Made by a program: the position numbers and the translations under genes
IMG/VR virus record: IMGVR_UViG_3300017917_000693
Location: 1 to 64,000 of that record
Reading direction: 5' to 3' (one strand)
DNA length: 64,000 nt
Source of the DNA: a virus
The notes under the pieces: model-generated
Seen by the model: the letters and a program-made list of their open reading frames with translations, nothing else
Told to the model about the DNA's origin: nothing
Databases searched by the model: none
Part shown: in pieces, positions 12,551-36,488 of the stretch
Layout: each line of letters begins with the position of its first letter
Position numbering within the stretch: position 1 is the stretch's first letter

Positions 12551-12570
12551 TTCCCTAAGGAGATATTTAC

Positions 12571-13781: not shown

Positions 13782-14287
13782 TTAAAGCTATATTAGCCGC
13801 TACCAGTACTGGCGGTATTGGTAATCGAGGTACCTTGCCTTGGCCAAAACACAGCGAAGATCTTCGTTGGTTTAAGGAACACACAGATGGACATGTAGTG
13901 GTAATGGGCCGACGCACCTGGGATGATCCTAAGATGCCTAAGCCCTTGCCTAATCGCATCAACTGTGTGGTTAGTAACAATATTATTAACGAGTACACTG
14001 TTAGACGTTTGCATGGTGATATCAGTCAGTCTGTATTAGATTTGCAACGGCAGTTCTCAGATCGAGACATCTATATCATTGGCGGTAAAACCTTATACGA
14101 AGCCACTGCTGACATTGTTGATCAAGTAATATTAACACGCATGAAATTGAATTCATGGTGCGATACTCGTATTAATTTAGACAGATATCTAGCACCTTTC
14201 CGTATACGATCAGTTAGACCTGGAGAAAACTGCACCTATGAAATATGGGGCAGAGATGTGTTCTTTAGAGTTGACAATCAATCATAA
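13778..14287 (+). CDS. Dihydrofolate reductase
   Basis: The 169-residue protein starts like DHFR: IKAILAATSTGGIGNRGTLPWP holds the substrate-loop and LPW motifs, and VVMGRRTWDD matches the NADPH-binding VMGRxTW motif. DIYIIGGKTLY corresponds to the conserved IxGGxxxY segment near residue 105. It regenerates tetrahydrofolate used up by thymidylate synthase, whose gene follows 18 bases later. The pair matches the frd-td arrangement of T4-like phages. The promoter of thyA lies within its final codons. Confidence 0.9.
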   Translation: MIKAILAATSTGGIGNRGTLPWPKHSEDLRWFKEHTDGHVVVMGRRTWDDPKMPKPLPNRINCVVSNNIINEYTVRRLHGDISQSVLDLQRQFSDRDIYIIGGKTLYEATADIVDQVILTRMKLNSWCDTRINLDRYLAPFRIRSVRPGENCTYEIWGRDVFFRVDNQS

Positions 14288-14299
14288 ATCTGTTATAGT
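14271..14299 (+). promoter_or_regulatory. Sigma-70-type promoter for thyA, leaderless
   Basis: TTGACA at 14271-14276 and TATAGT at 14294-14299 have a 17-base spacer. The -10 box ends 6 bases before the thyA ATG at 14306, so transcription would begin at or within a base or two of the start codon. Confidence 0.8.
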
Positions 14300-14305
14300 A
14301 TTAAA

Positions 14306-15307: not shown

Positions 15308-15584
15308 GCGTCCACACCGTGTGAGATTGTTTGCTTGGCGTAGTCATATACAAGAAGCACTAAAGTCCAGCACACGTGAAATGTACATGCAGGCCGCAGA
15401 ACAGTTTAGTAAAACTGAGAAGTATGCTTGGGCTGAACGTAACGGTGTTAAACTAGATTTTGACATTGACGAACGTGCTGTTGATTGGTTTAAGCAAGTT
15501 CGCTTTTATGCAGACTTAGATGAAACACAATATACAGATTATTGCCTAAGATTTTTTGATCACCACGACGAGAATTGGAAATGA
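15261..15584 (+). CDS. Hypothetical, 107 aa
   Basis: Function not recognised. The protein begins inside the thyA gene (47 bases shared, different frame) with GAGGA about 10 bases before the ATG. It is helical, with a repeated aromatic theme (RLFAWRSHIQEAL, MYMQAAEQF, AVDWFKQVRFYADL). A shorter version from the internal Met near residue 41 cannot be excluded. It is followed by another small gene 4 bases inside its end. Confidence 0.6.
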   Translation: MDTSVTHQSKPQWRFERPHRVRLFAWRSHIQEALKSSTREMYMQAAEQFSKTEKYAWAERNGVKLDFDIDERAVDWFKQVRFYADLDETQYTDYCLRFFDHHDENWK

Positions 15585-15739
15585 CAAATTTAAAAGACCT
15601 AATGAAAGCCGCTCTTGAAAAGAAACAAGCAGAGCAACACACAAATAACAATAAACCACTGGCTGACAAAGGACATCATGCAAAGAGTCAGGTAGGCAGT
15701 AACAAACCAGCAAAGAAATCAGCAGGAAGAGGTCGATGA
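15581..15739 (+). CDS. Small hydrophilic protein, 52 aa
   Basis: The product is a short helix (LKDLMKAALEKKQAEQH) with a lysine-, asparagine- and glycine-rich tail ending AGRGR. It shares ATGA with the gene before it and with the epimerase after it. It resembles a small nucleic-acid-binding or ribosome-associated protein only in composition; no function is known. Confidence 0.55.
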   Translation: MTNLKDLMKAALEKKQAEQHTNNNKPLADKGHHAKSQVGSNKPAKKSAGRGR

Positions 15740-16710
15740 AAATATTACTCACTGGCGGTGCTGGTTTTATCGGGCACAATGTAACACGCATGTTGTCCGA
15801 ACAGGGGCATCAATGTGTAGTCGTTGATTCTTTCACTACATATAATTTTGTGCCAAAAGAAGAATTACAATACCTAACAGACAACAGACTAACAGAAACA
15901 CGTATGGGTCGTGGCGTAGCAGTATATAATAACGATATCCGTGATACTGTTGTACTTCCTGATCTATTCAAAGAACATCAATTTGATACAGTCATCCATT
16001 TAGCAAGTTATCCTAGACAAAAAGTTGTTAGTGTTAACCCGTTATTAGCCAGTGATGTCATGAGCACTGGATTAATTAACCTGTTGGAATCTAGTCGCGA
16101 ACACAATATTAAAAAGTTTGTCTACATTAGTTCTAGTATGGTCTACGGTGACTTTGACGCAGATGTTAGCGAATCAGCAGAATGTCGTCCTATTGGACAG
16201 TATGGCATTATGAAGTATATGGGCGAGAAACTAGTAGAAGATTACAGTCGTCGGGGTTATTTCAAACATGTGATTATTCGTCCAAGTGCTGTCTATGGCG
16301 AGTGGGACGTAGAGGATCGTGTAGTCAGCAAGTTTATGACCAAAGCCATGCGAGGTGAGACTCTTAAGGTCAATGGTGCCAACGAGGTACTTGATTTTAC
16401 CTACGTAGAAGATACTGCTCAGGGTATTGCGTTAGCCGCAACAAATGACCAAGCTCACGGTGTCTACAATATCACACGTAGTGATAGTCGTATGTGGACA
16501 TTAAAAGAAGCAGCTGAACTTGCTATTAATATAGCAGGACAAGGTACGTTAGAAATTGCTGATCGTGATCTTAGTTTTCCTAAACGTGGACGTTTAGATA
16601 TTAGTCGGGCACAACAAGAACTAGGCTATAATCCAAAAGTAGGTGTAGAAGAAGGTTTCCGTAGGTATTATGAGTGGTACAATCAAAATCCCGTTCTTTG
16701 GCGTAGATAG
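15736..16710 (+). CDS. NAD-dependent nucleotide-sugar epimerase/dehydratase
   Basis: This 324-residue extended short-chain dehydrogenase has the NAD-binding motif GGAGFIG at residues 7-13, HLASYP after strand four, the catalytic serine in YISSSMVYG and the YxxxK pair in YGIMK. VIIRPSAVYG and FTYVEDTAQGI fit a GDP- or UDP-sugar epimerase or dehydratase. It prepares an activated sugar, probably for the aminotransferase made from the overlapping next gene. The two genes converge with the glycosyltransferase and radical SAM operon on the other strand, which would use such sugars. The exact reaction cannot be told. Confidence 0.88.
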   Translation: MKILLTGGAGFIGHNVTRMLSEQGHQCVVVDSFTTYNFVPKEELQYLTDNRLTETRMGRGVAVYNNDIRDTVVLPDLFKEHQFDTVIHLASYPRQKVVSVNPLLASDVMSTGLINLLESSREHNIKKFVYISSSMVYGDFDADVSESAECRPIGQYGIMKYMGEKLVEDYSRRGYFKHVIIRPSAVYGEWDVEDRVVSKFMTKAMRGETLKVNGANEVLDFTYVEDTAQGIALAATNDQAHGVYNITRSDSRMWTLKEAAELAINIAGQGTLEIADRDLSFPKRGRLDISRAQQELGYNPKVGVEEGFRRYYEWYNQNPVLWRR

Positions 16711-17776
16711 GCAGTACAGCAACATACGCGAAGAAATCTTAGATGTCACTGACAGTGTCTATTCGTCTGGACAAGTCTTAGATGACATACAGACTAAAAA
16801 CTTTGAATCTGTTGTTGCTAAATTAACAGAACGACGTCATGCTGTGGCAGTTAACAGTGGCACACAGGCACTTATATTTGCCCTGCGTTGTGTAGATTTT
16901 TACAGTATATTTTCTAAACACAAAGTACTTGTACCTACACAGAGTTTTGCCGCAACACTTAATGCTATTCTTGAAGCAGGATTTGATCCTGTATTCTGCG
17001 ATGTTGATCCAATCACTGGACTAATGGACATAAACAGCATACCTGTAGAACCAGATGAACTAGCCGCTGTACTATATGTAAACTTATTTGGCAACATCGT
17101 TGACTACGACAAGTTAATGACCTATCGAGAGTATTGGAACACACATAACATTCCTATCATCGAAGATGCCGCACAAAGTTTTGGCGCATACTATCGTGGT
17201 GTACCCAGTGGTAAGTTAGGTGACATCAGTTGTCTGAGTTTTGATCCCACCAAGAATTTAAACAACTATGGTTCGGGTGGTATGGTCTTAACCGATGATA
17301 TCGACTTTGGTGAACTTATACGCAGTCTTCGTAACAATGGTAAAGCGCACGATCATGCCATGAGTGGTACTAACAGTCGTATGAGTGAAGCAGACTGTGC
17401 GCAGATGCTGATCAAATTAAAATATTTTAATGAATGGCAGGCACGTAGAAGAACTATTGCTGAATACTACACAGAATCTTTAGATGGGTGTGTTGATCTA
17501 ATACCCATTGACAGCAAAGTAGAACATGCCTGGAGTAAGTACGTCATACATCATCGTGCTCGAAATGGTATTAGACATCACCTTAAAGAGCAGGGCATTG
17601 AATCGCGCATACACTACGAAGTACCCCTACACCTATTAGATTCTGCAGGTCCACAGGGTATTTTTGAAGGTGCTGAAGAATTTAGTATGAGTTGTTTAAG
17701 TTTGCCTATCTATCCAGAACTGACAGACAGCGAAGTTGAATATATTGTTGACTCAGTTAAAGAGTATACTTTTTAG
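16670..17776 (+). CDS. DegT/DnrJ/EryC1 sugar aminotransferase
   Basis: The 368-residue PLP enzyme has NSGTQALIFAL near residues 62-72, EDAAQSFGA, and the PLP lysine in SFDPTKNLNNYGSGG, all typical of DegT-family aminotransferases that add an amino group to a keto-sugar nucleotide. GQVLDD near the start is also usual. The start at 16670 lies 41 bases inside the epimerase gene after GTAGG, so the two are coupled and likely act in sequence. The last 20 bases overlap the convergent 872-residue gene, with no terminator between. Confidence 0.92.
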   Translation: MSGTIKIPFFGVDRQYSNIREEILDVTDSVYSSGQVLDDIQTKNFESVVAKLTERRHAVAVNSGTQALIFALRCVDFYSIFSKHKVLVPTQSFAATLNAILEAGFDPVFCDVDPITGLMDINSIPVEPDELAAVLYVNLFGNIVDYDKLMTYREYWNTHNIPIIEDAAQSFGAYYRGVPSGKLGDISCLSFDPTKNLNNYGSGGMVLTDDIDFGELIRSLRNNGKAHDHAMSGTNSRMSEADCAQMLIKLKYFNEWQARRRTIAEYYTESLDGCVDLIPIDSKVEHAWSKYVIHHRARNGIRHHLKEQGIESRIHYEVPLHLLDSAGPQGIFEGAEEFSMSCLSLPIYPELTDSEVEYIVDSVKEYTF

Positions 17777-23532: not shown

Positions 23533-24723
23533 TTATTCCTTACTACTGTGATCATATCCAGGTCGCATCATATCTATTTGTTGTTGTTTGTAATCAGGAT
23601 CACTCCAACAATAGTCAAATACTCCGGTAACATCGTCAACTGTAATCTTATAGATATCAAGATGCGTACTTAATATTTCCCAAATTTTAAACATATCTTC
23701 TGTGCCAAAACTTGATTTTAAATCAACACGACCTACTGGAAGATATCCCAGACTTAGTTCTGGATTATTTGGGTCCAATTTATTTTTAACTAGCCACTCG
23801 TTAAACTCTTGAGCAAATTTTGTAACCCAGGGATAGTTATCAGCCAGAGTTACAGACTTAGCCCATTCAATATCAAACTCACCTGAGTAGTATTTGAGAT
23901 GTGTAATTGCTTCGCAGACTGTATCAGTTAAATCCGGAGCACCTTCATCTCGGAACACTTCTATTAGAGTTTTTCCTATCTGAGCCCAGTGCATGTATAC
24001 ATGGCCGAATCTGCGATCGTATCCATTTTCTAAAAACAATTTTTTATGTTCTGCTGTTAGTTCATAACGATCAGCATGTAAAAACGTTGTAATTTGACTA
24101 GGACGCACCCACTCAGGAGTACTTGCCTGTTTGCGTTGACTTAGTATTAAACTTTCCATTTCATGGCAGATTGTATTCAACTGTCGTATTGCCCATTTAG
24201 TTTCGTAATCGGCCACTCGATAATACGGACTTAGTGAATCTACTGTGCCTTGTAATCGTTCAAAGTGATTATGTAGTTGATTTAATATACCATGCTTTGC
24301 GTATAAACCTATGTTGGTTCTACGTGTACCATCTACTGTACCTGGTTTTAATTGTGTACCTTCAACAGGATATGTTGCTGGAAAACGCACTGCATTTGGA
24401 TGGAACCATTCCTCAATAATATAATTTTCTAATCCGTGTTGAGTAAAATCAAAATTATTAATTACTGTTACGCTTTTGTTTAGCTCTTCACATAGATAAT
24501 CTAAAGTTCTAGCCGAGTCTGGGAAACCCATAAAACAAAAGTTTTTTTCTAATAGATTACCCGACTCTAATAATTTTTTAAGAGCTACGACCCAGTCTTG
24601 TGCTAGCTGGTGTTTGTCAGGAATAATATAATAATTAATTTGATCAGTATAGTCTAACGGATTCCGTAGAGTAACTGTGATTTTAGATTGATTGGTACCA
24701 TTCATACGCTTGAGGACGCTCAC
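23533..24723 (-). CDS. Conserved hypothetical, 396 aa
   Basis: Not assigned. The first half has a beta-rich region (ITVTLRNPLDYTDQINYYIIP) and a VINNFDF segment; the second half is helical with RFGHVYMHWAQIGKTLIEVFRDEGAPDL, LKYYSGEFDIEWAK and FGTEDMFKIWEI. The combination resembles proteins next to radical SAM genes in marine phage and bacterial sequences, which would make it a candidate substrate-handling partner. The GTG at 24723 overlaps the radical SAM gene by 41 bases; ATG 24705 is the alternative start. No catalytic motif was seen. Confidence 0.7.
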   Translation of the reverse strand: MSVLKRMNGTNQSKITVTLRNPLDYTDQINYYIIPDKHQLAQDWVVALKKLLESGNLLEKNFCFMGFPDSARTLDYLCEELNKSVTVINNFDFTQHGLENYIIEEWFHPNAVRFPATYPVEGTQLKPGTVDGTRRTNIGLYAKHGILNQLHNHFERLQGTVDSLSPYYRVADYETKWAIRQLNTICHEMESLILSQRKQASTPEWVRPSQITTFLHADRYELTAEHKKLFLENGYDRRFGHVYMHWAQIGKTLIEVFRDEGAPDLTDTVCEAITHLKYYSGEFDIEWAKSVTLADNYPWVTKFAQEFNEWLVKNKLDPNNPELSLGYLPVGRVDLKSSFGTEDMFKIWEILSTHLDIYKITVDDVTGVFDYCWSDPDYKQQQIDMMRPGYDHSSKE

Positions 24724-25975
24724 TTAATATATCTGCTAATGTATACTTATCGTTGCGTATCTGCTCTAGTTGTAGAATGCGATTTTTGCCTTTCACAAGA
24801 GCAGTCTGCCATTCATTAGGCCACTGCTCCTGAAATGTAGGGCGTGTCTTTAGTTGCTCTAGTATGTCCCTAAGCGAGCTGTTAGATGGCAAGCTACCCA
24901 ATATTTCGTCTACCCAGGGATGTAGTATATCCCGAGGTAGGGCCAAAGGCGACATAATTATATCTGGTGAGAAACTAAAGACAACTTTAGCCAGTACGTC
25001 TACTTCCAGCTCTTGAGCAAGCTGGGCAATTCTTGTGACTTCAAACATACCTGGTAGGGTGAGCGTGAAGTCAATGCGCATCTGACGTCGGTGACTTGCG
25101 ATTTCAACTCCCTGACGGAAGTTCTCAAGCCATGAATTGTAATCAAGTCCTGTTCTAATATATTCACCAATTGCTCCTGTTCCATCGAGACTGGCGCAGA
25201 TTTGCCAATCACGTAAGTGACGTAAAATATCGTTATAAAGATTGGTACCGCGATAGTTAACGCGGCTAAGATTAGTGTTGTACCTTGCGTAGACATTTGG
25301 TCCATCTCCTAGTTCAACAATACGCTGCATATAGCGCCAATGTTGCTCATACATCAGGGGCTCTCCACCTACCCAATATACTTCTTCTACTCGATGTTCT
25401 TCTACCGCTTGAGCAAATTCGGCTTCAATTTGATTTTCTTGAAACTGTTCAATTTGTTTTTTGATTTCAGGACGCATCCAATTATTTTTTGGATTGTGCC
25501 AATTGATCATGTTATGTTGACGCTGTTCTGACTCCCATGCGCTAGATAACATATCTCCACACATGCGACATTTGAAATTACATAGATTACTGAAACGATA
25601 GTCCCAACTTACTGGCTGTACTGTAGTTGATCCATCTGGTGCAGTGTTCTCTAATACATACTCATACTTATGTCCAAAGAGACTGTTAAAATAACTACGG
25701 TAAACTGATGTGTTGAGTAATTTATCATTACATACTTCACACTCAGATAAAGTTTCTCCTGCCATCATACGTCTGCGCACACTACGCATATGATCGCTGT
25801 TCCAATGTTCTTCAAGCGTAATTGGTATGTACTTGCCTGTGCCACTTGCTGTATCTATATACTGTTCAAAGTTCTGAGCAGGTTCACGACTAGCACAGCA
25901 CATTCTGCGCTCAGTCTGAGGGCTTAGGTATGTGTGTACCCAAGGCGCCATGCAAAATGTCGCAGGTCTACTCAT
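24683..25975 (-). CDS. Twitch-type radical SAM protein (RS6)
   Basis: The 430-residue protein has an N-terminal cysteine region (C8 with MAPW, C26-C27, C79 and C82) that resembles a twitch-type auxiliary iron-sulfur domain placed before the catalytic part. The radical SAM cluster motif is C132, C136, C139 in NLCNFKCRMCG. GGEPLMYEQHW and ASLDGTG mark the SAM-binding core. Known relatives of this N-twitch form are common in marine phages and have unproven substrates. It is the last of six such genes in a row, overlapping its upstream neighbour by 8 bases and the 396-residue gene by 41 bases. The CC pair places it in the larger subgroup of this cluster. Confidence 0.9.
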   Translation of the reverse strand: MSRPATFCMAPWVHTYLSPQTERRMCCASREPAQNFEQYIDTASGTGKYIPITLEEHWNSDHMRSVRRRMMAGETLSECEVCNDKLLNTSVYRSYFNSLFGHKYEYVLENTAPDGSTTVQPVSWDYRFSNLCNFKCRMCGDMLSSAWESEQRQHNMINWHNPKNNWMRPEIKKQIEQFQENQIEAEFAQAVEEHRVEEVYWVGGEPLMYEQHWRYMQRIVELGDGPNVYARYNTNLSRVNYRGTNLYNDILRHLRDWQICASLDGTGAIGEYIRTGLDYNSWLENFRQGVEIASHRRQMRIDFTLTLPGMFEVTRIAQLAQELEVDVLAKVVFSFSPDIIMSPLALPRDILHPWVDEILGSLPSNSSLRDILEQLKTRPTFQEQWPNEWQTALVKGKNRILQLEQIRNDKYTLADILSERPQAYEWYQSI

Positions 25976-27170
25976 ATCCCATTGCTCGGGCTATTTCAGG
26001 ATGTGTAGTAAGGAAACTTTGTTTGCGGTACTGATCAGTTATTTTCATTTTTTCTAAAAACTCTGACCCATCACTGCCCTGTCCATTTTTAATGAATTGA
26101 ACAATTCGATCAATTTCTACACGATGCTCTGCGCTGAAATCTGCTGTGGTTAATCTATTAATTACTAGCTGTTGAGCCGCAGGGGTCATGCGATTAATAC
26201 ACATATGATTTGGATCATGTAGCATATTAAAATACGTATGATTAAATGTTTGTGTGTTTACCCAATTACACAGCTCTGGCAGATAGTAAACATTTTGTAC
26301 ATTGATAGTCATACAAATTTGTGTAGATATCTGCGGACTCCGCATGGCATTAAACCGTTCTATGTTGGATTCCACCTCTGCCCAGTCAGCTCCAAATCGC
26401 TCATACTCAAACCGTTGACCAACATTATCAATGCTAAATGCTATTTCCACATGCCTGAACTTGCGCCACAATTCTTCAGCATCGTCTGGAAATACCGTAC
26501 CATTGGTATTATAATGAACTTCAATATGTTGGCTATCACCTGTGTCTGCTGCAAAACGCAGAAGATCAAAGTGCTGTTCAATTAAGAAGGGCTCCCCGCC
26601 GGTGAATTCAAAATACTTTATATTGGGCAATAACTGCTTTAGGTTATCCCAGAATGCTGGGCTTTCACGAGGCCAAGCACCATCAGTCAGAAATTGATAT
26701 GCTAGATGTTTTTTTCGATCGCCACCTACATAGTCCATTTCTTCTTTGGCCCATTTACTGCTTGACCAAGATCCGCAGATGCGACATTTAAGATTACAAA
26801 TGTTACCTAGTTTAAGATCAATAAACCAAAGTTGATCAGGATTGGTATTTGTCCAATCTACACTGTCATAATATTCTTTAAGTCTAACGCGACTGTTCAT
26901 ACGTTTGCTAGTACGTCCGGCGGCTTCTTCGTCCCAGCAACGTTTGCAGGTTGATGGTTTTTCTCCACGTAAAAATTTTTTCCGTAGATCCTGCATGTAA
27001 TCACTGTGATATATTTCTTCTAAGGTATGCTCGCGTAATAGATACTTGCTACCGTCAGACTTGGTTATTTCGTCAATGGCCAAACAGCATGGTCGTGCTG
27101 TACCTATAGGACTAGTTTCAATACTAATCCAAGGTAACATACAAATTGTTTGAGGCAAACTACTTGACAT
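25968..27170 (-). CDS. Twitch-type radical SAM protein (RS5)
   Basis: The 400-residue protein shows the same plan as its neighbours: C10 with MLPW, C28-C29, C75 and C78 (CKRC) in the N-terminal cysteine region, then C125, C129, C132 (CNLKCRIC) for the SAM cluster, and GGEPFLIEQH after it. HYNTNGTVFP and AFSIDNVG fit the barrel strands. It lies between two similar genes and shares 8 and 11 bases with them. The cysteine pair CC and the CNLKCRICGSW segment group it with RS2, RS4 and RS6. Confidence 0.9.
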   Translation of the reverse strand: MSSSLPQTICMLPWISIETSPIGTARPCCLAIDEITKSDGSKYLLREHTLEEIYHSDYMQDLRKKFLRGEKPSTCKRCWDEEAAGRTSKRMNSRVRLKEYYDSVDWTNTNPDQLWFIDLKLGNICNLKCRICGSWSSSKWAKEEMDYVGGDRKKHLAYQFLTDGAWPRESPAFWDNLKQLLPNIKYFEFTGGEPFLIEQHFDLLRFAADTGDSQHIEVHYNTNGTVFPDDAEELWRKFRHVEIAFSIDNVGQRFEYERFGADWAEVESNIERFNAMRSPQISTQICMTINVQNVYYLPELCNWVNTQTFNHTYFNMLHDPNHMCINRMTPAAQQLVINRLTTADFSAEHRVEIDRIVQFIKNGQGSDGSEFLEKMKITDQYRKQSFLTTHPEIARAMGYE

Positions 27171-28494
27171 ATGATCTTAGATCCTTGTACTCCGGAAATA
27201 CATCTTCAAACTTTTCTTCTCTGACCACATCCATACGATCATTTTCCTTAAAGAAGTCAGATAGGAAATGACTGTTATCATGTTGTTGTAGGAAATTAAT
27301 CAATCCACGATAACCACCTGTGGCACGACTAATACGATCTAACGGTTCTAGCCAAGCAAGGTGATTTTCAATTTTTTCAATAGCCTGTGCTTTATAGTGG
27401 TTAGGCAAGACATCAGCTCGTATGCGATCAGGGCTCTGACATAAATTAATATTCCAATCCTGCGGTCTGACAAAGCCACGCTCGACCCAATCTCTATGAA
27501 AGTCTGTTACGTGCAGTAGATTGTATAGGCTAACTGTACTACTAACATAAAAATCTACGTTAGGACAAATCTCTATCATACGACGTCTATTGTCTTCGGT
27601 CTCTGACCATACTTGTCCTTTACGCATATATTCGCCACGTGCGTGACTATCGTCTAAACTGGCTCCAACACTAACTGTGTCAAATAATTTCCATAGTTCA
27701 AATACATCTTGATCTTTATATTTGAGTACACTAAAGTTTGTATTATAGATCAGTCGCACGTGGAACATTTTGCGTTTGACTAACTCGTTTAAGATCATGT
27801 AGTGTTCTTCCATGATCAAGGGTTCGCCGCCGGCAAAGTAAATCTGTTCTAGATTTGGTATGTGAGGTAACATCTGTTCCCACATGTCATATTTGTGTCG
27901 TCCAGCATATTCAACACTGTCCATTTCGCGTCCAAGTACTTCGGGTTTACGTCCGTATAATTTAACATGATCCGCAAACCAGTTGCTGCTGAATAGTGGG
28001 CCACAACTACGACAACGGAAGTTACATAGGTTACTAAAACGCAGATCATAGTAGCGTAGTTTAAAATCATTTAAACTGCCGTCTTCATTGGTCTCATCTG
28101 TGAGCTCAATTAAATGTCCAAAATCTTTGCTAAAACTATTGCGCATACTGAAGAATCCGTTATCTTCTAGCTCGTAACATTTAACACATTCTTTACAGGG
28201 CTTTTCGTTAAGCATGTTAGTACGCATGGTACGCATAGGCTTATCGTTCCAGACTTCTTCCATGGTCTGCTGACGTAGATCCCCAATTGGTTGCCACATG
28301 TCGCCCAAACAACAAGGATAAGCACGACCATCGGGCAGTCCGTGTAGGTGTATCCAAGGCAGTATACAGAAGGTCTTGCTTTTAGTTAGCAATTCTTTAT
28401 GACGGTCAGTTAACTCATTGGGATCACAATAGATTGGCATGGTACTATTGTAGTCGTAGTTTTTAAAATTAGGTTTAGTCTTTTTTATTTTCAT
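27160..28494 (-). CDS. Twitch-type radical SAM protein (RS4)
   Basis: The 444-residue protein has a longer N-terminal tail (about 40 residues) before the first cysteine, C43 with ILPW. C61-C62, C100, C103 and C106 follow in the cysteine region, one cysteine more than in its relatives. The SAM cluster is C157, C161, C164 (CNFRCRSC), then GGEPLIMEEHY. The protein ends with KFEDVFPEY, a tail type also seen in the others (ETFPQM, TFPQLADW). It overlaps RS3 by 4 bases and RS5 by 11. Confidence 0.9.
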   Translation of the reverse strand: MKIKKTKPNFKNYDYNSTMPIYCDPNELTDRHKELLTKSKTFCILPWIHLHGLPDGRAYPCCLGDMWQPIGDLRQQTMEEVWNDKPMRTMRTNMLNEKPCKECVKCYELEDNGFFSMRNSFSKDFGHLIELTDETNEDGSLNDFKLRYYDLRFSNLCNFRCRSCGPLFSSNWFADHVKLYGRKPEVLGREMDSVEYAGRHKYDMWEQMLPHIPNLEQIYFAGGEPLIMEEHYMILNELVKRKMFHVRLIYNTNFSVLKYKDQDVFELWKLFDTVSVGASLDDSHARGEYMRKGQVWSETEDNRRRMIEICPNVDFYVSSTVSLYNLLHVTDFHRDWVERGFVRPQDWNINLCQSPDRIRADVLPNHYKAQAIEKIENHLAWLEPLDRISRATGGYRGLINFLQQHDNSHFLSDFFKENDRMDVVREEKFEDVFPEYKDLRSYVK

Positions 28495-29831
28495 AGAGTG
28501 TCATACCAATCTGCTAGTTGTGGAAATGTATATTTAAAATCTTTTCCACGACGTTGGTCATATTGTTGATAAAAAAGTTTAAAGTCACGCTGTAAGATTT
28601 CACGGCTTACTGCGCCACTGTGCGGGCTGTCTACTTCTACTAGATATGTATTTAATCTAACAATATGTTCGTATTCAAATTCATGTATGTGTTCGATGTT
28701 ACGACTAAGAAATGCTATTAATCTTTCACGAATATTCTTACGCACTTCTAAAGGCAATATCAGTGGGCTTTGGAAACTCGGAAAACGTAAGATGTTTAAG
28801 GTGAAGTTAATTGCGTCTCGACCGTACTTACGTTTTAATTCTACAATCCAGTCTAGTAATTCATCTAGTGAGAATAGGCATAAGGCATTGATGGTACACA
28901 TAACATGTAGGCCTCGCAGTTTGCCACTATCCAGTAGATATAGTACATTGCCAGTCCATTCATCCCAATCCAGGCCATCACGAATATACTCTGCATGACC
29001 ATTCCACGACTCATTGCTGGTATATAAGTCAAGCTCAATGCCTTCACACGCATCCAATAATCTTTCAAGTTTTTCACGTTCAAATCCTAAGTTACTGTTA
29101 ATAGCAAGACGTGTTGTACTCTTGCCTCTGTTGTCTTTAAACCAATCAATTAAGCGCCAGAGATATGGGCTCATTAACGGTTCGCCACCGGTAATGCGTA
29201 GTTCCTTTAGGGTTCTGTGGAGGTCTGATTCCCACCACTTGAAGAACGCTTCAACGTAAGGATTGACGTCAGTAGGACCATACAGTTGACTACTATCGTG
29301 ACTGTGAGTAAAGTGATTGCGTCCGTCAGATACGAGATCTGCATAGGCTCCATTGCGCTTAATATCGCGTACCCAGGCTGTACTGAAAGCAGGGTTACAA
29401 TAGCTGCAAGCAAACTGACAAGTTCTGTCAAATGCGATTTCAAGTGTTTGTAGATTAACATCATCTTGGTAATTAGTTTTATAAGCAAGATCTAAGTCCT
29501 CATCTGAATATATAATTGTTTTGTAAATTCTATCACTTGATGCGTTAGCATCTTCCAACTTCCAGCAGTACTCACAGCCACCGGGACGTTCACCTACCTG
29601 CATTTGACGACGCTGTTCTTTCTTTTCTTTTGTGTTGTGTATAGCCTTAGGATTAAACTTAATTTCCTGTACATCAATAGCATGTGGTAGTGGATGGTGA
29701 CAACTAGTAGTCTGTCCACTGCCTAACCATATGGTAGCGTTGTACCATTTAGCTGCACAGAAGCTACTACTCTTAGTGTCTATTACACGTTCTTTATATT
29801 CTAATAATGTTTCGTTAGGCTTTTTTGGCAT
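28491..29831 (-). CDS. Twitch-type radical SAM protein (RS3), SCHHP subgroup
   Basis: This 446-residue member differs in the N-terminal region: C25 with AAKW, then SCHHP at residues 43-47 in place of the CC pair, then C86 and C89 (CEYC). KEQRRQMQVGERPGG is nearly repeated in RS1. The SAM cluster is C138, C142, C145 in CQFACSYCNPAFST, and GGEPLMSPYLW follows. The histidine pair next to a single cysteine could be a different cluster ligand set. It overlaps RS2 by 17 bases and RS4 by 4. Confidence 0.9.
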   Translation of the reverse strand: MPKKPNETLLEYKERVIDTKSSSFCAAKWYNATIWLGSGQTTSCHHPLPHAIDVQEIKFNPKAIHNTKEKKEQRRQMQVGERPGGCEYCWKLEDANASSDRIYKTIIYSDEDLDLAYKTNYQDDVNLQTLEIAFDRTCQFACSYCNPAFSTAWVRDIKRNGAYADLVSDGRNHFTHSHDSSQLYGPTDVNPYVEAFFKWWESDLHRTLKELRITGGEPLMSPYLWRLIDWFKDNRGKSTTRLAINSNLGFEREKLERLLDACEGIELDLYTSNESWNGHAEYIRDGLDWDEWTGNVLYLLDSGKLRGLHVMCTINALCLFSLDELLDWIVELKRKYGRDAINFTLNILRFPSFQSPLILPLEVRKNIRERLIAFLSRNIEHIHEFEYEHIVRLNTYLVEVDSPHSGAVSREILQRDFKLFYQQYDQRRGKDFKYTFPQLADWYDTL

Positions 29832-30966
29832 AATAATCTTTTAGTTCGGGTAATACATTTAAAATAGATACGTTTCGAATAGTATCTCTAATAGCTATTT
29901 CTTTACAAAAATCTTGCCAGAGTTGATTATCAAATGCCGGCTGTTTATTAAGAGCTGTTACTATTGTATCTGCAATTGGATCTGACAGTTTAACCAATTT
30001 ATTCTTTGACTCTTGCAGCAGTTCTGGTGGCATATTATATGCTCTGAATATCTCCGGTTCTGCCAGTGGATAGATACTTAAATAATAATTATTTTCTCTG
30101 GCCCAGGCAATTAATTTATCAATATGTAATATATTTAAATTTAATATTGTGGCATGTATTATTAAATTTATTCCTGGAATCTTTGATAGTGTTTTTACAT
30201 TATTTTCAACTGTAGCCCAGACACTGTTATGTCTGATATATTCTCCCAAAGATCCAGTGGCATCAATGCTAATCATCATTCTTAATTTTGGAATATTAGA
30301 TAATATGTTTAACCAATTTTCAGTTAATGTAGTAGCATTAGTTGTTAAATGAACCTCGGTATTGTCTAATAACTTGTTATCCAGAGCCCAAGTTAATAAT
30401 TTTTTAATCTCGGGTACCATTGTTGGTTCACCGCCGCGAAGATTAATCAGTCTGGGCGCAGTTTTTAACCAATTTTTAATTTCTTTAATCTCTGGATTAT
30501 GTACTTCATAATCTTTCTGATCAATTCTACTTATTTTGAGTAATTTATTTTCTGTTGCAATCGAACTACTCTCTTTCTCGTTACACATTAGACATTTTAA
30601 ATTACATAAATTAGTTAACTGCAATTCTAATTCTACAGGCAACGCTTTAGGATAGTCATAATGTTTTAAAATTTTGTCAGCATAATTTTCTAATATTGAA
30701 TATTCACTATTAGCTTTTTGTCTAGGGCTAGTGATTCCGTTATTTTCTTGTACGTAGCAATATTGACAACTCTCAACGGTTTCACCAAGTAACATTTTTT
30801 TACGCACTTCGGCAAGTTCTTGGCTATTCCAATAATCTTCAATGGTAGAAGTACGAAGGTTATATTTACGTTCTTCTGTACTAGAACAACACATAGCAAT
30901 ATCGCCATTGGTGCAGACGACACTACTAGTCCATGGTTTTATGCAAAAAGTTTTATTTTTCAGCAT
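29815..30966 (-). CDS. Twitch-type radical SAM protein (RS2)
   Basis: At 383 residues this is the shortest of the six. C8 with IKPW, C26-C27, C67 and C70 (CQYC) form the N-terminal cysteine region; C121, C125, C128 (CNLKCLMC) bind the SAM cluster; GGEPTMVPEI and MISIDATGS follow. Codon use is visibly more AT-rich than in the neighbours (runs of AAA and TTA), a possible sign of separate origin. It overlaps RS1 by 14 bases and RS3 by 17. Confidence 0.9.
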   Translation of the reverse strand: MLKNKTFCIKPWTSSVVCTNGDIAMCCSSTEERKYNLRTSTIEDYWNSQELAEVRKKMLLGETVESCQYCYVQENNGITSPRQKANSEYSILENYADKILKHYDYPKALPVELELQLTNLCNLKCLMCNEKESSSIATENKLLKISRIDQKDYEVHNPEIKEIKNWLKTAPRLINLRGGEPTMVPEIKKLLTWALDNKLLDNTEVHLTTNATTLTENWLNILSNIPKLRMMISIDATGSLGEYIRHNSVWATVENNVKTLSKIPGINLIIHATILNLNILHIDKLIAWARENNYYLSIYPLAEPEIFRAYNMPPELLQESKNKLVKLSDPIADTIVTALNKQPAFDNQLWQDFCKEIAIRDTIRNVSILNVLPELKDYYAKKA

Positions 30967-32353
30967 GGTATTTGCATTCGTTCCAAAATTCTCGCATCTG
31001 CGGAAATGTTTCTAAAAACGTTCCTACTCCATATTGCAAGGTTGCATTACGTTTATCGTACTCGTTAAAAAAACGATAAAAGTCAGCACGTTGTTGTTCA
31101 ATATACTTAGGATCTAAGGTACTGCCTTGTGCCATCCATGCTAGGTTACGTTCCATACGCTGTATTTCGTAGTCTTTGAATCCTACAAAACTACCTTCAG
31201 GCATCAGATGCCCTTTCATCCACGCAATCACATCTTCAAGTACATGACAATAACTGTCGGGCAGTATCTGTAAACTCTGCCAGGTGGGTTGGCGTAGTAG
31301 CGGAGTGTCAAACCAAACACGCTGGTAGGTATGACTGTGTAGCTCGCGCAATTCTAAAATGTGTTCTAACAGTCTTCGTAACCCTAGAATGTTTAGATTA
31401 TTCATTGTTATGATGTAGGTTAAACTATTGCGATAGGGCACTTCTGTCAGGTAACGATGAACATAGGTGTTTACACGATGCGGGCCTACACCTCTACGAA
31501 TGTATGCAGCTTGCTCAGGATTACCCGAATCAAAGCTAACATACTGCATAAAATGTTCTATTCGTTCACCAGTACATAGTTGTTTTACTTTGTCCAGGTA
31601 CTTATTAAACAATTCTGGTTCAACACTAAAGTTACTGGTTACATCTACGTGTAGATCACTTTTAGGAAAGTTTAAGATATAGTCAAACACCCGATGTGTG
31701 TTTTTATCCATTAGTGGTTCGCCACCAGTCATACGGAAATGTCGTAAACTACCGTACAGACTTGGCCACCACTCCCAAAACGCTTCCAGCCAAGGATTAT
31801 GCTCGCGTGCAGGTATAGGACGACGACGTCCTTCAAAGTGTTCCGGAGCATTGTGCGGTGTGCTAGTAGGATAAGCACCCCAGCGTGTTATGTCCTTACC
31901 CCACTCAGTACTAAACTGTGGACTGCAATATGAGCAGGCTAGATTACATGCGTGATTAAAATTTACTTCTACATAACTAGGTGTAGCATCCATGTCCCAT
32001 GGTGCATTAACAATCTCATCATAGTGTTCTGCAGCCCAGGGTTCACCTGAACGATAGTGTCGATCACTTAGTTGTCCGTTGTCCTCAGCTGACCAGCAGT
32101 AACTACATTCTGGTGGACGTTGCCCTTCCTTCATAAGTCTGCGCTGTTCTTTTTTATGATCTGTATTGTGTAGTGCGCCAGGATAAAACTTCAATGGTGC
32201 CACAGGAATTTCATGTAGGGGCGGATGATAGCAACTATTGGTCATGCCTGTGGTTAGGTGCAGACTAACCTGTTGCCATTTAGCTAGACACAGTGCTGAG
32301 CCTAATTGTTCCCGCATTTGTTCTGCGGTTGACATGAAGTCACTTTTACTCAC
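30953..32353 (-). CDS. Twitch-type radical SAM protein (RS1), SCYHP subgroup
   Basis: This 466-residue protein is the first of the six to be transcribed. C22 with LAKW, SCYHP at residues 40-44, C83 and C86 (CSYC) form the N-terminal region, and C136, C140, C143 (CNLACSYCSPQFST) bind the SAM cluster; GGEPLMDKNTH follows. The SCYHP and KKEQRRLMKEGQRPPE parts match RS3 closely, so RS1 and RS3 form one subgroup and RS2, RS4, RS5 and RS6 another. It overlaps the glycosyltransferase-like gene at 32346 by 8 bases. Confidence 0.9.
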   Translation of the reverse strand: MSKSDFMSTAEQMREQLGSALCLAKWQQVSLHLTTGMTNSCYHPPLHEIPVAPLKFYPGALHNTDHKKEQRRLMKEGQRPPECSYCWSAEDNGQLSDRHYRSGEPWAAEHYDEIVNAPWDMDATPSYVEVNFNHACNLACSYCSPQFSTEWGKDITRWGAYPTSTPHNAPEHFEGRRRPIPAREHNPWLEAFWEWWPSLYGSLRHFRMTGGEPLMDKNTHRVFDYILNFPKSDLHVDVTSNFSVEPELFNKYLDKVKQLCTGERIEHFMQYVSFDSGNPEQAAYIRRGVGPHRVNTYVHRYLTEVPYRNSLTYIITMNNLNILGLRRLLEHILELRELHSHTYQRVWFDTPLLRQPTWQSLQILPDSYCHVLEDVIAWMKGHLMPEGSFVGFKDYEIQRMERNLAWMAQGSTLDPKYIEQQRADFYRFFNEYDKRNATLQYGVGTFLETFPQMREFWNECKYHAEK

Positions 32354-33239
32354 GTGCCATTGGTCCTTGATTACGGAAATTACTCTTATAGTGATGTTTG
32401 AAGAACTTACTTTCTTCTGGGTCCATGTCTACGATAGGCAAGCTCAAACGTGTACGAAGTTTTTCACCTATAGCACGACAATGATCAGGTCCATGGTCTT
32501 TGTATTCTTCCCACAGAGTTGCTAACTTGTCAAAGTCCTGTACATCTTTATGATTCCATTCAGTAAGCATAGTTTTAAATGTACCAAGACGTGCGCCGTA
32601 TATTGCCCAGAAACCATTTTCCGCATCTGCGCCGACTGTTTGCCAAACGCACAAATGGTCATAGTTACGGCTGTGTACACGTTGATTAAACTCTTCTATG
32701 CTTGGCTTCGTACCTCTATCTAAACACATTTTAACACCTTCGCGGAAGCCTGCTCTCCAGGCCTGAAAAGGTGTTTGGTTAGGATATGTTGTGCTGTAGC
32801 AGTCATTCATAGCCCAATAGTCAGGATAAAAGCAAAACTCTACGTCGTTTTCCGCTGTGCCGTCTGAGGCTTCGTGGGTCTGCATCGCGTAGACAAACTC
32901 CTTGGTCCAGCAGCTGAGTCCTCCGTTGCCGTATTGCAGTCCGTTAATGATATTCCGCGCTTTCCAACGAAACACTTTAGTATTGTTGCTACTATCAAGA
33001 TTAAGTTGAAGGTTAAAAAATTCACTATCCGGGATATTATCGCCGTCAATGAGTACAAACCTGTCTGTGTCGCTTGCGTCAGCCGCCGCTTTGTGTGCTG
33101 CATCACTTCCTTTTACTCCATCAACACGTTTTGCCCATGGAACCATGTTTTGAATCTTAATCCAAAACTCTTCTTTTTTTGGTTCATCATAACTTAGATA
33201 GATGCAATCTAAGTCAGCAATATCAATTATTTCTGTCAT
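32346..33239 (-). CDS. Nucleotide-sugar-transferase-like protein, 297 aa
   Basis: Its opening (DCIYLSYDEPKKEEFW, then HKAAADASDTDRFVLIDGDNI) follows the start of a GT-A-type fold, with IDGDN as a possible DxD metal motif. GLQYGNGGLSCWTKEF and QAWRAGFREGVK match segments of the C-terminal domain of the 872-residue protein (GLEYGHMG, TWRTAFREVIK), so the two share an ancestor. The likely role is sugar transfer or binding, but no donor can be named. It joins the glycosyltransferase-like genes upstream to the radical SAM string by short overlaps. Confidence 0.7.
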   Translation of the reverse strand: MTEIIDIADLDCIYLSYDEPKKEEFWIKIQNMVPWAKRVDGVKGSDAAHKAAADASDTDRFVLIDGDNIPDSEFFNLQLNLDSSNNTKVFRWKARNIINGLQYGNGGLSCWTKEFVYAMQTHEASDGTAENDVEFCFYPDYWAMNDCYSTTYPNQTPFQAWRAGFREGVKMCLDRGTKPSIEEFNQRVHSRNYDHLCVWQTVGADAENGFWAIYGARLGTFKTMLTEWNHKDVQDFDKLATLWEEYKDHGPDHCRAIGEKLRTRLSLPIVDMDPEESKFFKHHYKSNFRNQGPMARE

Positions 33240-33588
33240 AGTATTCTACTTCGCTGTATTCTTCGCAGGATTCTACCACAACACTTGCATGGTATTTTAC
33301 TACTTTAACACCTTTATCCGATTTAGTCAATGGAAAATAGTAGTAATATTTAGGTGGCTCGTGTACTATTTTACCATCTACTACTTTTAAATCGCGCCAA
33401 TTGTGTGTCATGTACAATTCACGATCAATATGAATCCAATTATCTCCTGTAGGAAATCCACTGGCTGTAAATCCTGTTACCCAGCCATCCTCATCGTAAT
33501 AGGCGCGATATTCTTCAACTGTTTCTACAACAGGAATGTTATCAAATGCCTTAAGAAATTCTTCTTCAGCTGATAAAATTTTTGTCAT
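33223..33588 (-). CDS. Conserved hypothetical, 121 aa
   Basis: I chose the ATG at 33588 (MTKILSAEEEF); a longer frame to 33642 lies within the upstream gene. The protein has EYRAYYDEDGWVTGFTASGFPTG and WIHIDRELY followed by KVVDGKIVH, a pattern I associate with a small family of marine phages. No enzymatic motif is visible. It overlaps the gene upstream by 23 bases and the one downstream by 17, so its expression follows the operon. Confidence 0.65.
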   Translation of the reverse strand: MTKILSAEEEFLKAFDNIPVVETVEEYRAYYDEDGWVTGFTASGFPTGDNWIHIDRELYMTHNWRDLKVVDGKIVHEPPKYYYYFPLTKSDKGVKVVKYHASVVVESCEEYSEVEYYDRNN

Positions 33589-34372
33589 GGTAGTGTACTG
33601 GACTATATTGGTTAACATTATTAATGCGCAACATATTACCATCGCGCTCTACATTTACATAATCAAGCCAAGTCTGATGATCGTTCCAGCCTTGTACAGC
33701 CGACTTCATGTGTACAAAGTTAAAAAAGTCTAAGGTTGGTATGTAACATTTTTCTTCGCCGACGAGCTTACTGGTTAAGGCAAATACTACATCAGTACTA
33801 GGCAACTCAGGACACTGCACTAAATTTTCTCGTACGGTATTCCAATTTCTATAGATGCTACCAGCAGTACGAAAAAAGTCCGCAGCAGTTTGACTATATC
33901 TAAAATAGTACATGCCGGTATAGATATCAGGAAGTCTGTTCAATTCAAAAAATCTTCTATATGGTGTACGCTCAACAGTCTGTTGTTGATAATTTTTACA
34001 ATGATAGCTAAAACAGACTTCACGCAGACGTAGCGCATCTAACCAATGTCCGACATCTCTGGTAAACAGTAAATCGCTTTCTAACTTAATAGTTTCCTTG
34101 TAAGGAGTTAAATTAAACACCTGCCACTCATTTGACTGCTTCCACGATTCATCTTTAGCAAGGTCGTGGGGTAAAGTAATAACGTAATCAAAGGTTTTTC
34201 TATGCGCATCAGTCAACAGACTAGCAGTCTGTTCATCAACAATTACGCTGTACGAAGCACTGGGCTGTGTTGCTTTTACATTCTGCGCTTGTAGATAAGC
34301 AAGCTGTAGATAATCTACATCAGTATTCTGCGCTATGGTTAAGAACCCAAACTGTTCTTTAAATTCACGCAT
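33566..34372 (-). CDS. Glycosyltransferase-like protein, 268 aa
   Basis: The protein has a Rossmann-type first half (FGFLTIAQNTDVDYLQLAYL, SVIVDEQTASLL) and NLTPYKETIKLESDLLF, where ESD takes the place of a DxD motif. The same segment reads LSPYDQTILLDSDYF in the next gene, so the two are paralogs. The second half has aromatic segments and HMKSAVQGWND. It may transfer a sugar to a phage or host target. Because ESD replaces DSD, activity is less certain than for its paralog. Confidence 0.7.
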   Translation of the reverse strand: MREFKEQFGFLTIAQNTDVDYLQLAYLQAQNVKATQPSASYSVIVDEQTASLLTDAHRKTFDYVITLPHDLAKDESWKQSNEWQVFNLTPYKETIKLESDLLFTRDVGHWLDALRLREVCFSYHCKNYQQQTVERTPYRRFFELNRLPDIYTGMYYFRYSQTAADFFRTAGSIYRNWNTVRENLVQCPELPSTDVVFALTSKLVGEEKCYIPTLDFFNFVHMKSAVQGWNDHQTWLDYVNVERDGNMLRINNVNQYSPVHYHDKNFIS

Positions 34373-35141
34373 CTATAGCATCCTTGATAAATTGTTCACA
34401 CTGTTCACTGAGCAACCATGCTTTACTCATAATGTGTAGATTTTGCTTAGGCAACACATAGGCCTGTCCTAGACTTTTTAAATATATTTTATTGTCTTTA
34501 AGCTCTAGAGAATCTATAGTATTCTGTACACTTAACATTGGCCAGGGAATATAGTTTTGTGTGTCTTGAGCATAGCCATTTAACACAAGATCTGCAATAG
34601 TAAACGCATAATCGTTTCTGAAATTTTTTACAGAAATATTATAAAGCTGTCTGTAGTATGCGTAGTTTCTTTCTACTCGTGCGACCATATCAAACAACAT
34701 CTGTGTTTTAGGTGTACGATTAAACACTACTACGGTTGCCCATAGATGAGGTAAACTGTACTTGCCCATCGGCGTATTTGGTTGTCCATCAACATATCTA
34801 TTGTGGCGCACAATAGAGTAGTCTTGTACTGTGTCAAGAACTTTTAATAAACTGTCGTCTAAAACAAAGTAATCGCTGTCTAACAGTATAGTTTGATCAT
34901 ATGGACTTAACTCATATGCACGATGTCTGCCTAGATTATTCCAGCTTTCAAACTTGTTGTTGTCCACAGAATATCTAAAGTTATTGGACACATCGCTACG
35001 TATTATAGTGGTAGGCAGGCCAAGATAGTGTTGTATTAGGCGACTAGAACGTTCAGCTATAGCTTCGTAATCTATAGCATCTGTGTTAGTGGCAAAAATT
35101 ACAACGCCCTTAGATTTTTCTAATGCGTCGTAGTTCTTCAT
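34365..35141 (-). CDS. Glycosyltransferase-like protein, 258 aa
   Basis: The 258-residue protein has the start GVVIFATNTDAIDYEAIA, then LSPYDQTILLDSDYFV where DSD matches the metal-binding DxD of GT-A glycosyltransferases. Later parts (LPHLWATVVVFNRTPKTQ, NDYAFTIADLVLNGY) fit the acceptor half. A sequence so short holds only the catalytic domain, so the acceptor must be soluble or brought by a partner. It overlaps the paralogous gene downstream by 8 bases and the first gene of the operon by 32. Confidence 0.78.
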   Translation of the reverse strand: MKNYDALEKSKGVVIFATNTDAIDYEAIAERSSRLIQHYLGLPTTIIRSDVSNNFRYSVDNNKFESWNNLGRHRAYELSPYDQTILLDSDYFVLDDSLLKVLDTVQDYSIVRHNRYVDGQPNTPMGKYSLPHLWATVVVFNRTPKTQMLFDMVARVERNYAYYRQLYNISVKNFRNDYAFTIADLVLNGYAQDTQNYIPWPMLSVQNTIDSLELKDNKIYLKSLGQAYVLPKQNLHIMSKAWLLSEQCEQFIKDAIDA

Positions 35142-35519: not shown

Positions 35520-36488
35520 CTATAATCCTGTAATGGTTGGCGTACCCCAAGTATTGGTTAAGTTTGTTGTTTCCGGAGGGGTAATGATTATGTCTGAATT
35601 GATTGTCATGTTAATAGCATCAAGTGTATTTGACACTGGCGGAACACCAAGGTCTTGTGTGTCATCTGCGGCGCCGTCGACATAATCGATTGTGAATAAA
35701 ATCTGGGCTCCTAGACCACCATTTGAGCCGGTGGCGCCAGTAACTCTTACTGCGATATTAACATAGTTACCTGTGTAGTTAGTACCAGTACTGGTAAGTC
35801 TGATTATTGTTTGATTAGTAGTAGTTATATCCCAGAAACCAATACCAAGACCGTTAGTAGTTAGTGTACCACCTGTACCCGTACGTGTACTAGTAAGAGC
35901 ATCAAAGTGTAAGGTTCCTAAATTTGTACCTAGTAGTGTGGTCCAATCACTTTCTTTGTTGTTATTAGTGCCATTGGTAGTACTAAATGCAATAGAAATA
36001 CGTCCGCCGGCATTAAAGAAATAACGTGCTTGATCCGCTGATCCAAACTCAATAGTACGAGTCTGTTGGAATGTGGTTGGAGTAGCACTATCCCATACAC
36101 TGTTTAAGTTAGTTGTACTTGGTGTACCACGTGTGTTGTTAAAGTTTAAACGGTTGTTATAAGCTGTGGTAATGTTTGTGCTTAACAACACAGAGGCAGC
36201 GATGGTAGCACCGGCTGTTGGGCTAGTAATACCACTACCCGAACCTGCTTGGTGTGTTAGTATACTGTTCAAACGAGCAATCATTGTTGACCACTGTGTA
36301 GCTGTTACTGTGTCACCGGCATTAACTGCGCTAAGTACTGTACTTTGACCGTATCCTTTGTCACCATTGCCTACGCCCCACACACTGTTAATGTTAGCCA
36401 CAGCATGGTTAGCTGTACCGTCTGCATTACCAGTTGCAAAAGTGTTATAGTGATCTCTTAGTATTAAGTCACCAGATGTATATGCCAT
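35520..36488 (-). CDS. Probable tail-fibre/structural protein, 322 aa
   Basis: The protein is rich in asparagine, threonine, serine and glycine, with beta-type patterns typical of phage fibres. The N-terminus has AVANINSVWGVGNGDKGYGQS. A later region (EFGSADQARYFFNAGGRISIAFS, then FDITIDY-like strands near VDGAADD) resembles a fibre domain repeated in marine myoviruses. It is the last gene of the late minus-strand block and ends before a terminator. The exact place in the virion is not known. Confidence 0.7.
   Translation of the reverse strand: MAYTSGDLILRDHYNTFATGNADGTANHAVANINSVWGVGNGDKGYGQSTVLSAVNAGDTVTATQWSTMIARLNSILTHQAGSGSGITSPTAGATIAASVLLSTNITTAYNNRLNFNNTRGTPSTTNLNSVWDSATPTTFQQTRTIEFGSADQARYFFNAGGRISIAFSTTNGTNNNKESDWTTLLGTNLGTLHFDALTSTRTGTGGTLTTNGLGIGFWDITTTNQTIIRLTSTGTNYTGNYVNIAVRVTGATGSNGGLGAQILFTIDYVDGAADDTQDLGVPPVSNTLDAINMTINSDIIITPPETTNLTNTWGTPTITGL

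Follow-up and report, generated by a model that had tools for sequence, protein, structure and literature searches.

What can a series of six N-twitch radical SAM enzymes, encoded head to tail in a single phage operon, do together? Such proteins are widespread among aquatic phages. The window, i.e. the complete 64,000-nucleotide stretch analysed here (positions 1 to 64,000 of IMG/VR record IMGVR_UViG_3300017917_000693), stems from a T4-like aquatic phage and holds six consecutive overlapping reading frames of this type, RS1-RS6, on the minus strand (24683-32353, Table 1). Based on family profiles, phylogeny, gene order in related contigs and the surrounding genes, we propose that five of them, RS1, RS3, RS4, RS5 and RS6, form a co-inherited set that acts together, probably sequentially, on one sugar or glycan, a reading to which we assign a probability of about one half.

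Six overlapping genes of one family

Successive genes overlap by 14, 17, 4, 11 and 8 bases from RS1/RS2 to RS5/RS6, in agreement with the single series and the overlaps of 4-17 bases in the original prediction, and the series continues at both ends, as RS1 overlaps the preceding gene by 8 bases and RS6 the following one by 41. In a profile search all six proteins exceed the curated cut-off (170 bits) of NF033640, the NCBIfam model for N-twitch (twitch domain-containing) radical SAM proteins, with E-values of 5e-78 to 4e-116, which excludes chance and places them in one family rather than in different, unrelated ones. The N-terminal cysteines, CxxxCxxC and GGEP motifs that had been read in each protein are indeed invariant alignment columns in 6/6, four N-terminal cysteines among them, and an N-terminal auxiliary cluster is predicted for all six (C22, C41, C83 and C86 in RS1, and their equivalents). 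The alignment of the six holds no stretch conserved enough for a collection scan. Among the Pfam models, SPASM (PF13186, cut-off 21.5 bits) is exceeded by RS2, RS4 and RS5, with RS6 at 16.3 bits and no match for RS1 and RS3; Radical_SAM (PF04055, cut-off 29.5 bits) is clearly exceeded by RS2, RS3 and RS5, with RS6 at 29.5, RS4 at 25.4 and RS1 at 22.9 bits.

Table 1 Features of the radical SAM array and the surrounding island.
Feature	Position	Strand	Remarks
NAD-dependent NDP-sugar epimerase/dehydratase	15736..16710	+	Epimerase 152 bits; GDP_Man_Dehyd 126 bits
DegT/DnrJ/EryC1 sugar aminotransferase	16670..17776	+	268 bits
Repeat protein, possibly multi-domain GT, 872 aa	17757..20375	-	In at least 47/81 contigs
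APS-kinase-like P-loop kinase, 144 aa	20862..21296	-	APS_kinase 44.7 bits; in at least 38/81 contigs
O-carbamoyltransferase (NodU/TobZ/NovN type), 498 aa	21293..22789	-	Carbam_trans_N (PF02543) and _C (PF16861) over cut-off; phrog_1601
SGNH/GDSL-like protein, 225 aa	22755..23432	-	Lipase_GDSL_2 E 6.5e-7, just below cut-off
Microprotein ending RDPFIYK, 33 aa	23429..23530	-	Downstream of 396-aa gene in 96/114 loci
Conserved protein, 396 aa	23533..24723	-	In all 81 contigs (set-defining anchor); AlphaFold pLDDT 85.5
RS6, N-twitch radical SAM, 430 aa, core class 5	24683..25975	-	NF033640 302 bits
RS5, N-twitch radical SAM, 400 aa, core class 4	25968..27170	-	NF033640 352 bits
RS4, N-twitch radical SAM, 444 aa, core class 3	27160..28494	-	NF033640 388 bits; SPASM-type N-domain 42.9 bits
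RS3, N-twitch radical SAM, 446 aa, core class 2	28491..29831	-	NF033640 302 bits
RS2, N-twitch radical SAM, 383 aa, accessory	29815..30966	-	NF033640 286 bits
RS1, N-twitch radical SAM, 466 aa, core class 1	30953..32353	-	NF033640 263 bits; GTG start
GT-A-like protein, 297 aa	32346..33239	-	Directly upstream of RS1; AlphaFold pLDDT 83
Glycosyltransferase-like protein, 268 aa	33566..34372	-	Weak, sequence reading only; in 74/81 module contigs
Glycosyltransferase-like protein, 258 aa	34365..35141	-	Glycos_transf_2 E 0.073, below cut-off; in 70/81 module contigs
Thr/Asn/Gly-rich protein, 322 aa	35520..36488	-	18.9% Thr, 3.7% Lys+Arg, no Cys

A conserved core of five classes

The order RS1, RS3, RS4, RS5, RS6 is kept in 72 of the 81 viral contigs that span the locus, a set defined by two anchors, one of them the gene of the 396-aa protein. 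All five classes are also present in a marine locus (L166), with HMM margins above 200 bits, and at least 10 contigs encode RS4 and RS5 as one fusion protein (837-857 aa), with two family matches within one frame (G015, G017). RS6 is the most conserved class, its viral homologues being 72-82% identical. RS2, in turn, is the best match for only 19 proteins, 17 of which lie below 45% identity, and is an accessory insertion outside the core. Other accessory N-twitch slots vary in place and number among the contigs, where neighbouring genes come and go, and further such genes are found elsewhere in these large phage genomes. Hence, that the conserved unit comprises five enzymes is well supported. 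We note that gene order common to one phage group is partly a matter of descent. No homologue of RS1 or of the 297-aa protein was found in INPHARED.

With identities of 18-33% to RS1, the core classes represent old paralogues, and they form separate clades with viral and bacterial members. RS1 and RS3 group together as sister clades with a support of 0.95, so two real subgroups exist among the six, as had been proposed; their interleaving is caused by RS2 alone and vanishes once this gene is set aside. All seven cluster cysteines, auxiliary and SAM, are 100% conserved within each core class (84-113 orthologues each), which suggests that the proteins are active enzymes. RS1 retains Cys 22, 41, 83, 86, 136, 140, 143 and 460 in 110/110 orthologues; the cluster cysteines are likewise invariant in 107 orthologues of RS3, in 84 of RS5, there together with C286, and in 113 of RS6, where C260 reaches 99%.

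The classes recur in chromosomes of Bdellovibrio-like bacteria. In a Bacteriovoracaceae MAG all five lie in one chromosomal operon (L169) beside obgE and L27, scoring 608 (RS1), 654 (RS3), 479 (RS4), 334 (RS5) and 539 bits (RS6) against 152-323 bits for the next class, and these bacterial members exceed the NF033640 cut-off, too. Taken together, the five-class order, the invariant active-site cysteines, the RS4-RS5 fusions and the bacterial operon indicate an old set that is kept together, compatible with several steps on one product. The idea of a multi-step pathway is therefore retained from the original prediction as an old, diversified unit, with the six genes now resolved into five plus the accessory RS2.

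Sugar-type genes around the array

The island is located between tail-fibre genes on one side and thyA on the other; in L254 it is missing as a block, so that fibre genes and thyA meet directly, and the block is absent from L240 as well. Several of its genes point to sugar chemistry. The carbamoyltransferase has both domains of the TobZ, NovN, GdmN and NodU family, with NovN, GdmN and TobZ as closest solved structures; it differs in its shorter length, in being part of a sugar island and, in relatives, in its association with the microprotein. The epimerase/dehydratase and the aminotransferase, which recur at the same locus in L166, would likewise fit a sugar substrate, as would the GT-A-like neighbour of RS1. 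Of 14 tested virus records that carry the module, 11 have the aminotransferase; it is not present in every contig. For the 297-aa protein, Foldseek returned weak glycosyltransferase matches (best E 2e-3, probability up to 0.99, TM at most 0.39), and the match of a bacterial homologue to Glyco_tranf_2_2 is weak as well (E 0.0026). Neither the 268-aa nor the 872-aa protein has a Pfam match, and the glycosyltransferase calls on 32346-35141 are weak or made by sequence reading only; within the window, glycosyltransferases of a recognised family appear as weak matches only, with clear GT8 members in Vibrio phage K566. The Thr-rich protein accompanies the GT genes in 36/36 control loci and is a candidate acceptor of the decoration. 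The 396-aa protein has a confident AlphaFold model, yet no fold match in the PDB better than E 2.5. A B12-binding radical SAM protein (3277-5196), considered as a seventh pathway member, was rejected, its close homologue occurring in only 1 of 14 module records.

Independent support is provided by Vibrio phage K566, in which four N-twitch enzymes, two of them over the NF033640 cut-off, are interleaved with three glycosyltransferases (two GT8, one weak GT4). In a locus from a complete chromosome (L282), the radical SAM enzymes are accompanied by three SGNH proteins, an APH-type kinase and an NTP transferase. By contrast, the bacteria G003-G005 have radical SAM sets without the GT-A-like protein and without the 396-aa protein.

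Alternative explanations

Peptides, too, are modified by SPASM/twitch radical SAM enzymes. The array could thus install radical crosslinks, epimerisations or thioethers on a ribosomally made substrate (e.g. a short peptide, the 396-aa protein or one of the fibre proteins), similar to RiPP maturases, and the SPASM-type N-domains of RS2, RS4 and RS5, the 396-aa gene directly after RS6 and a microprotein with an invariant C-terminus would agree with this. However, the array leaves no gap for a precursor, with overlaps in 468 of 639 pairs of adjacent radical SAM genes, and the neighbours are of sugar type. Moreover, in a scan of viral sequences 103 of 118 microprotein loci have a carbamoyltransferase gene, in all 103 on the strand of the microprotein and mostly within 10 bases, and most of these short loci show no N-twitch gene. 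As the microprotein is thus tied to the carbamoyltransferase and not to the array, we consider it an improbable RiPP precursor and peptide modification as a whole unlikely. An INPHARED search with the microprotein gave no match, although the low-complexity filter of BLAST may hide it. Accessory enzymes that boost host metabolism, unrelated to each other and sharing the operon only for expression, have been proposed for Campylobacter phage clusters (PMC2853527), and the scattered accessory N-twitch genes of these large genomes could be seen in the same light; the five classes, though, keep their order while others come and go, fuse (RS4-RS5) and co-occur in bacteria, making this explanation quite improbable.

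Hypermodification of DNA, with the enzymes and the carbamoyltransferase acting on a modified cytosine or thymine, is suggested by phages with a 5-hydroxymethylcytosine carbamoyltransferase of the same enzyme family: genes for a carbamoyltransferase, a dCMP deaminase and a member of the thymidylate synthase family are all present in the window, the set described in connection with carbamoylated DNA (PMC8670742). The modified contigs mostly have Asp at synthase position 177 (PMC8670742), whereas the synthase here has Asn at the corresponding E. coli position (VPFNIA), the mark of an ordinary thymidylate synthase, which weakens this reading; with the deaminase in only 19 of 81 module contigs and the island adjoining fibre genes, we regard it as very unlikely. 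Recent tandem duplication without functional divergence, as head-to-tail genes of one family may imply, is contradicted by the tree: at 18-33% identity to RS1, in clades shared by viruses and bacteria, the classes are ancient and diversified rather than recent copies, and we reject this origin as having next to no likelihood.

Proposed mechanism

Surrounded by sugar-transfer genes, the five-enzyme set therefore probably makes or alters an unusual sugar decoration. In the favoured glycan-tailoring pathway, the SAM cluster of each enzyme would generate a 5'-deoxyadenosyl radical for hydrogen abstraction at an unactivated carbon, either in a nucleotide sugar or in a glycan chain, with the N-terminal auxiliary cluster binding the substrate or passing electrons. 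Such a reaction would probably result in dehydrogenation, epimerisation, deoxygenation or the formation of a C-C bond. Assembly, decoration and transfer of the product may be carried out by the NDP-sugar dehydratase/epimerase, the aminotransferase, the carbamoyltransferase and the SGNH and GT-like proteins. The target of this transfer would most likely be a virion protein encoded nearby, for which the Thr-rich protein is the candidate, or the host envelope. Differences in the product between phages would then be due to RS2 and the other N-twitch insertions. The sugar or glycan substrate, the sequential action and the acceptor are presumed.

Relation to known systems

The NF033640 model unites the six proteins, the L169 members and two of the four K566 enzymes, but neither separates the five classes nor gives a function, and we found no known substrate in the literature for any enzyme of this family. 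Campylobacter phages CP220 and CPt10, both T4-like, each carry five radical SAM genes in a block-replaceable region of about 10 kb; by description, those clusters are exchanged and unrelated between the two phages (PMC2853527), in contrast to the fixed five-class set here. Pelagimyophages have radical SAM cassettes and glycosyltransferases beside tail fibres in a host recognition cluster, described in the available sections of that report without class structure or a fixed set (PMC7029224). Likewise, the marine T4-like phage TARA_ERS488813_N000010 has 12 radical SAM genes, which the available text explains via Fe-S metabolism, without operon analysis (PMC5332604). Our literature search found no report of the five-class core or of its bacterial counterpart, and nothing relevant on Bdellovibrio radical SAM clusters; phage radical SAM clusters as such have been reported.

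In conclusion, what looked like many radical SAM genes in a phage becomes, through a fixed set of five enzymes and its bacterial counterpart, one defined, testable pathway, for which the bacterial operon and Vibrio phage K566 represent alternative test systems. More tentatively, and at odds we consider rather against it, this may be a five-step radical SAM pathway to an undescribed sugar or glycan, common to widespread aquatic T4-like phages and Bdellovibrionota, which phages diversify via extra N-twitch insertions. If glycan tailoring is indeed its role, the set would produce a sugar of the phage or cell surface by a route unusually rich in radical steps and could provide new sugar chemistry.

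The radical SAM array and its conserved core

The virus record totals 71,142 bases, 64 kb of which the window covers, and its source is, judged from baseplate genes and a gp46/47-like gene pair, a T4-like myophage. In agreement with the original prediction, six minus-strand reading frames, RS1 to RS6, overlap one another by 4-17 bases, and a profile search places all six products over the 170-bit cut-off of the N-twitch radical SAM family NF033640; the record as a whole has these six such genes and no others. The predicted motifs and two subgroups were likewise found in the six proteins.

The conserved unit is, however, smaller than the six genes proposed. IMG/VR contains at least 600 homologue stretches for RS6 and at least 450 for RS1, and fetching the best 80 for each yielded 118 contig groups. 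The exact order RS1>RS3>RS4>RS5>RS6 is kept in 72 of the 81 contigs spanning the locus. This count partly reflects common descent among related phages, and because RS1, RS4 or RS6 served to retrieve the loci and two flanking genes to select the 81 contigs, it is free of selection bias only for RS3 and RS5. Another N-twitch gene occupies the RS5 place in 5 further contigs. Accessory N-twitch genes number 0-3 in variable slots, and as RS2 is one of them, the core comprises five classes; without RS2 the subgroups, thought to be interleaved, follow in succession (RS1, RS3, then RS4, RS5, RS6). RS4-RS5 fusion proteins of 837-857 aa occur in at least 10 contigs, verified in two genomes (G015, G017) as two family matches within one frame. 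RS1-class proteins of 645-903 aa, apparently with another domain fused, were also observed (L070, L074, L082).

Identity of the six proteins to RS1 is 18-33%. A tree of 225 proteins keeps the core classes apart and puts marine and Bdellovibrionota members within or next to each of them. At the deep nodes RS1 (0.99) and RS6 (0.97) are well supported, RS5 (0.81) and RS3 (0.72) fairly so and the bacterial RS4 (0.11) poorly, although this bacterial protein scores 479 bits with the RS4 profile, against 159 bits for the next class. Among 84-113 orthologues per core class, each of the four auxiliary and three SAM-cluster cysteines is invariant (100%). On this sequence evidence the core classes appear old, with intact clusters. 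Additional, almost invariant cysteines (RS1 C460, RS3 C318, RS5 C286, RS6 C260) could, by analogy to known radical epimerases, be hydrogen donors.

Features of the window and of compared loci
Feature	Sequence	Position	Strand	Remarks
RS1-RS6	window	24683-32353	-	six N-twitch genes
297-aa protein	window	32346-33239	-	just before RS1; weak GT-A fold match
396-aa protein	window	23533-24723	-	conserved; confident predicted model (pLDDT 85.5)
Microprotein	window; also L287-L406	23429-23530	-	33 aa, ends RDPFIYK
Thr-rich protein	window	35520-36488	-	322 aa, 18.9% Thr, cysteine-free
Seventh radical SAM gene	window	3277-5196	-	B12-binding domain; outside array
4600-aa ORF	window	42106-55908	-	baseplate genes on one side, fibre genes on the other
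Two other radical SAM genes	L209	17295-19291		immediately after the 297-aa GT-A-like gene
Four N-twitch proteins	Vibrio phage K566 (L409)	12013-18749		two over cut-off, two just below

Genomic surroundings

The island extends from fibre genes, recognised by phrog tail-fibre matches, to the thymidylate-synthase gene thyA. In one relative lacking it (L254) thyA directly follows the fibre genes, and in another (L240) the next conserved genes do. An N-twitch gene over the cut-off was found in 14 of 14 relatives with the module and in none of five tested without it; L209, a relative without the module, keeps the GT-like genes. The B12-binding radical SAM gene has no regular presence among module phages.

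Besides the array, the island encodes an NDP-sugar epimerase/dehydratase and a DegT aminotransferase, a pair also clustered in a marine locus (L166), an O-carbamoyltransferase whose nearest relatives are NovN/GdmN/TobZ, an SGNH protein and an APS-kinase-like protein. A PDB fold search with the model of the 396-aa protein gave no match. Vibrio phage K566 is an independent case: its N-twitch genes are interleaved with three glycosyltransferase genes, two of them clear GT8 members and the third a weak GT4 member.

When viral sequences were scanned for the RDPFIYK tail, the microprotein lay on the carbamoyltransferase strand in all 103 loci with the phage carbamoyltransferase, most commonly with a 4-base stop/start overlap; residues ahead of the searched tail are conserved as well. 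It is likely a translationally coupled partner of the carbamoyltransferase, and a search for a description of it found none.

Bacterial counterpart

A Bacteriovoracaceae MAG contig (L169), which also carries obgE and L27, contains a compact operon in the order RS3, RS6, generic member, RS4, RS5, small protein, RS1, RS3. On a 2.66-Mb contig (G031), RS4, RS6, two RS3 and RS1 lie inside 20 kb, together with an NTP transferase, a kinase and three SGNH proteins. Of 144 genomes sampled from the Bdellovibrionota phylum, 6 have RS6-class matches above 500 bits, and several genomes of this phylum hold 10-33 N-twitch matches each, many clustered (G003-G007; L282, L183-L188). The enzyme set can work without the 297-aa and 396-aa proteins, since these were not found in G003-G005 and G003-G006, respectively.

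Proposed function

In the radical SAM superfamily, the SAM cluster produces a 5'-deoxyadenosyl radical, and auxiliary clusters serve substrate positioning or electron movement. Because both phage settings, and some of the bacterial ones, have sugar-type neighbours, a nucleotide sugar or glycan is the most likely substrate of the N-twitch set; several radical steps could accomplish its epimerisation, dehydrogenation, deoxygenation or joining of carbons. We give a peptide substrate about one chance in five, and DNA modification by the island enzymes is less likely because the synthase in the window carries Asn at position 177. Accessory metabolism in which the genes are unlinked would leave gene order, fusion and bacterial recurrence unexplained.

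For a nucleotide sugar or glycan product, the Thr-rich protein may be the acceptor. It is present in 36 of 36 control loci with GT genes; of 14 control loci without them, 11 lack it and the other 3 are cut off or end nearby. As the genes are neighbours, this co-occurrence is a pointer only. The host envelope is an alternative acceptor.

Radical SAM clusters have already been reported in Campylobacter phages (PMC2853527), and two further reports describe twelve radical SAM genes in a marine T4-like genome (PMC5332604) and clusters adjoining glycosyltransferases in pelagimyophages (PMC7029224). As far as our searches reach, the core of five classes in fixed order is new, and so are the accessory insertions and fusions seen in it and the bacterial operon.
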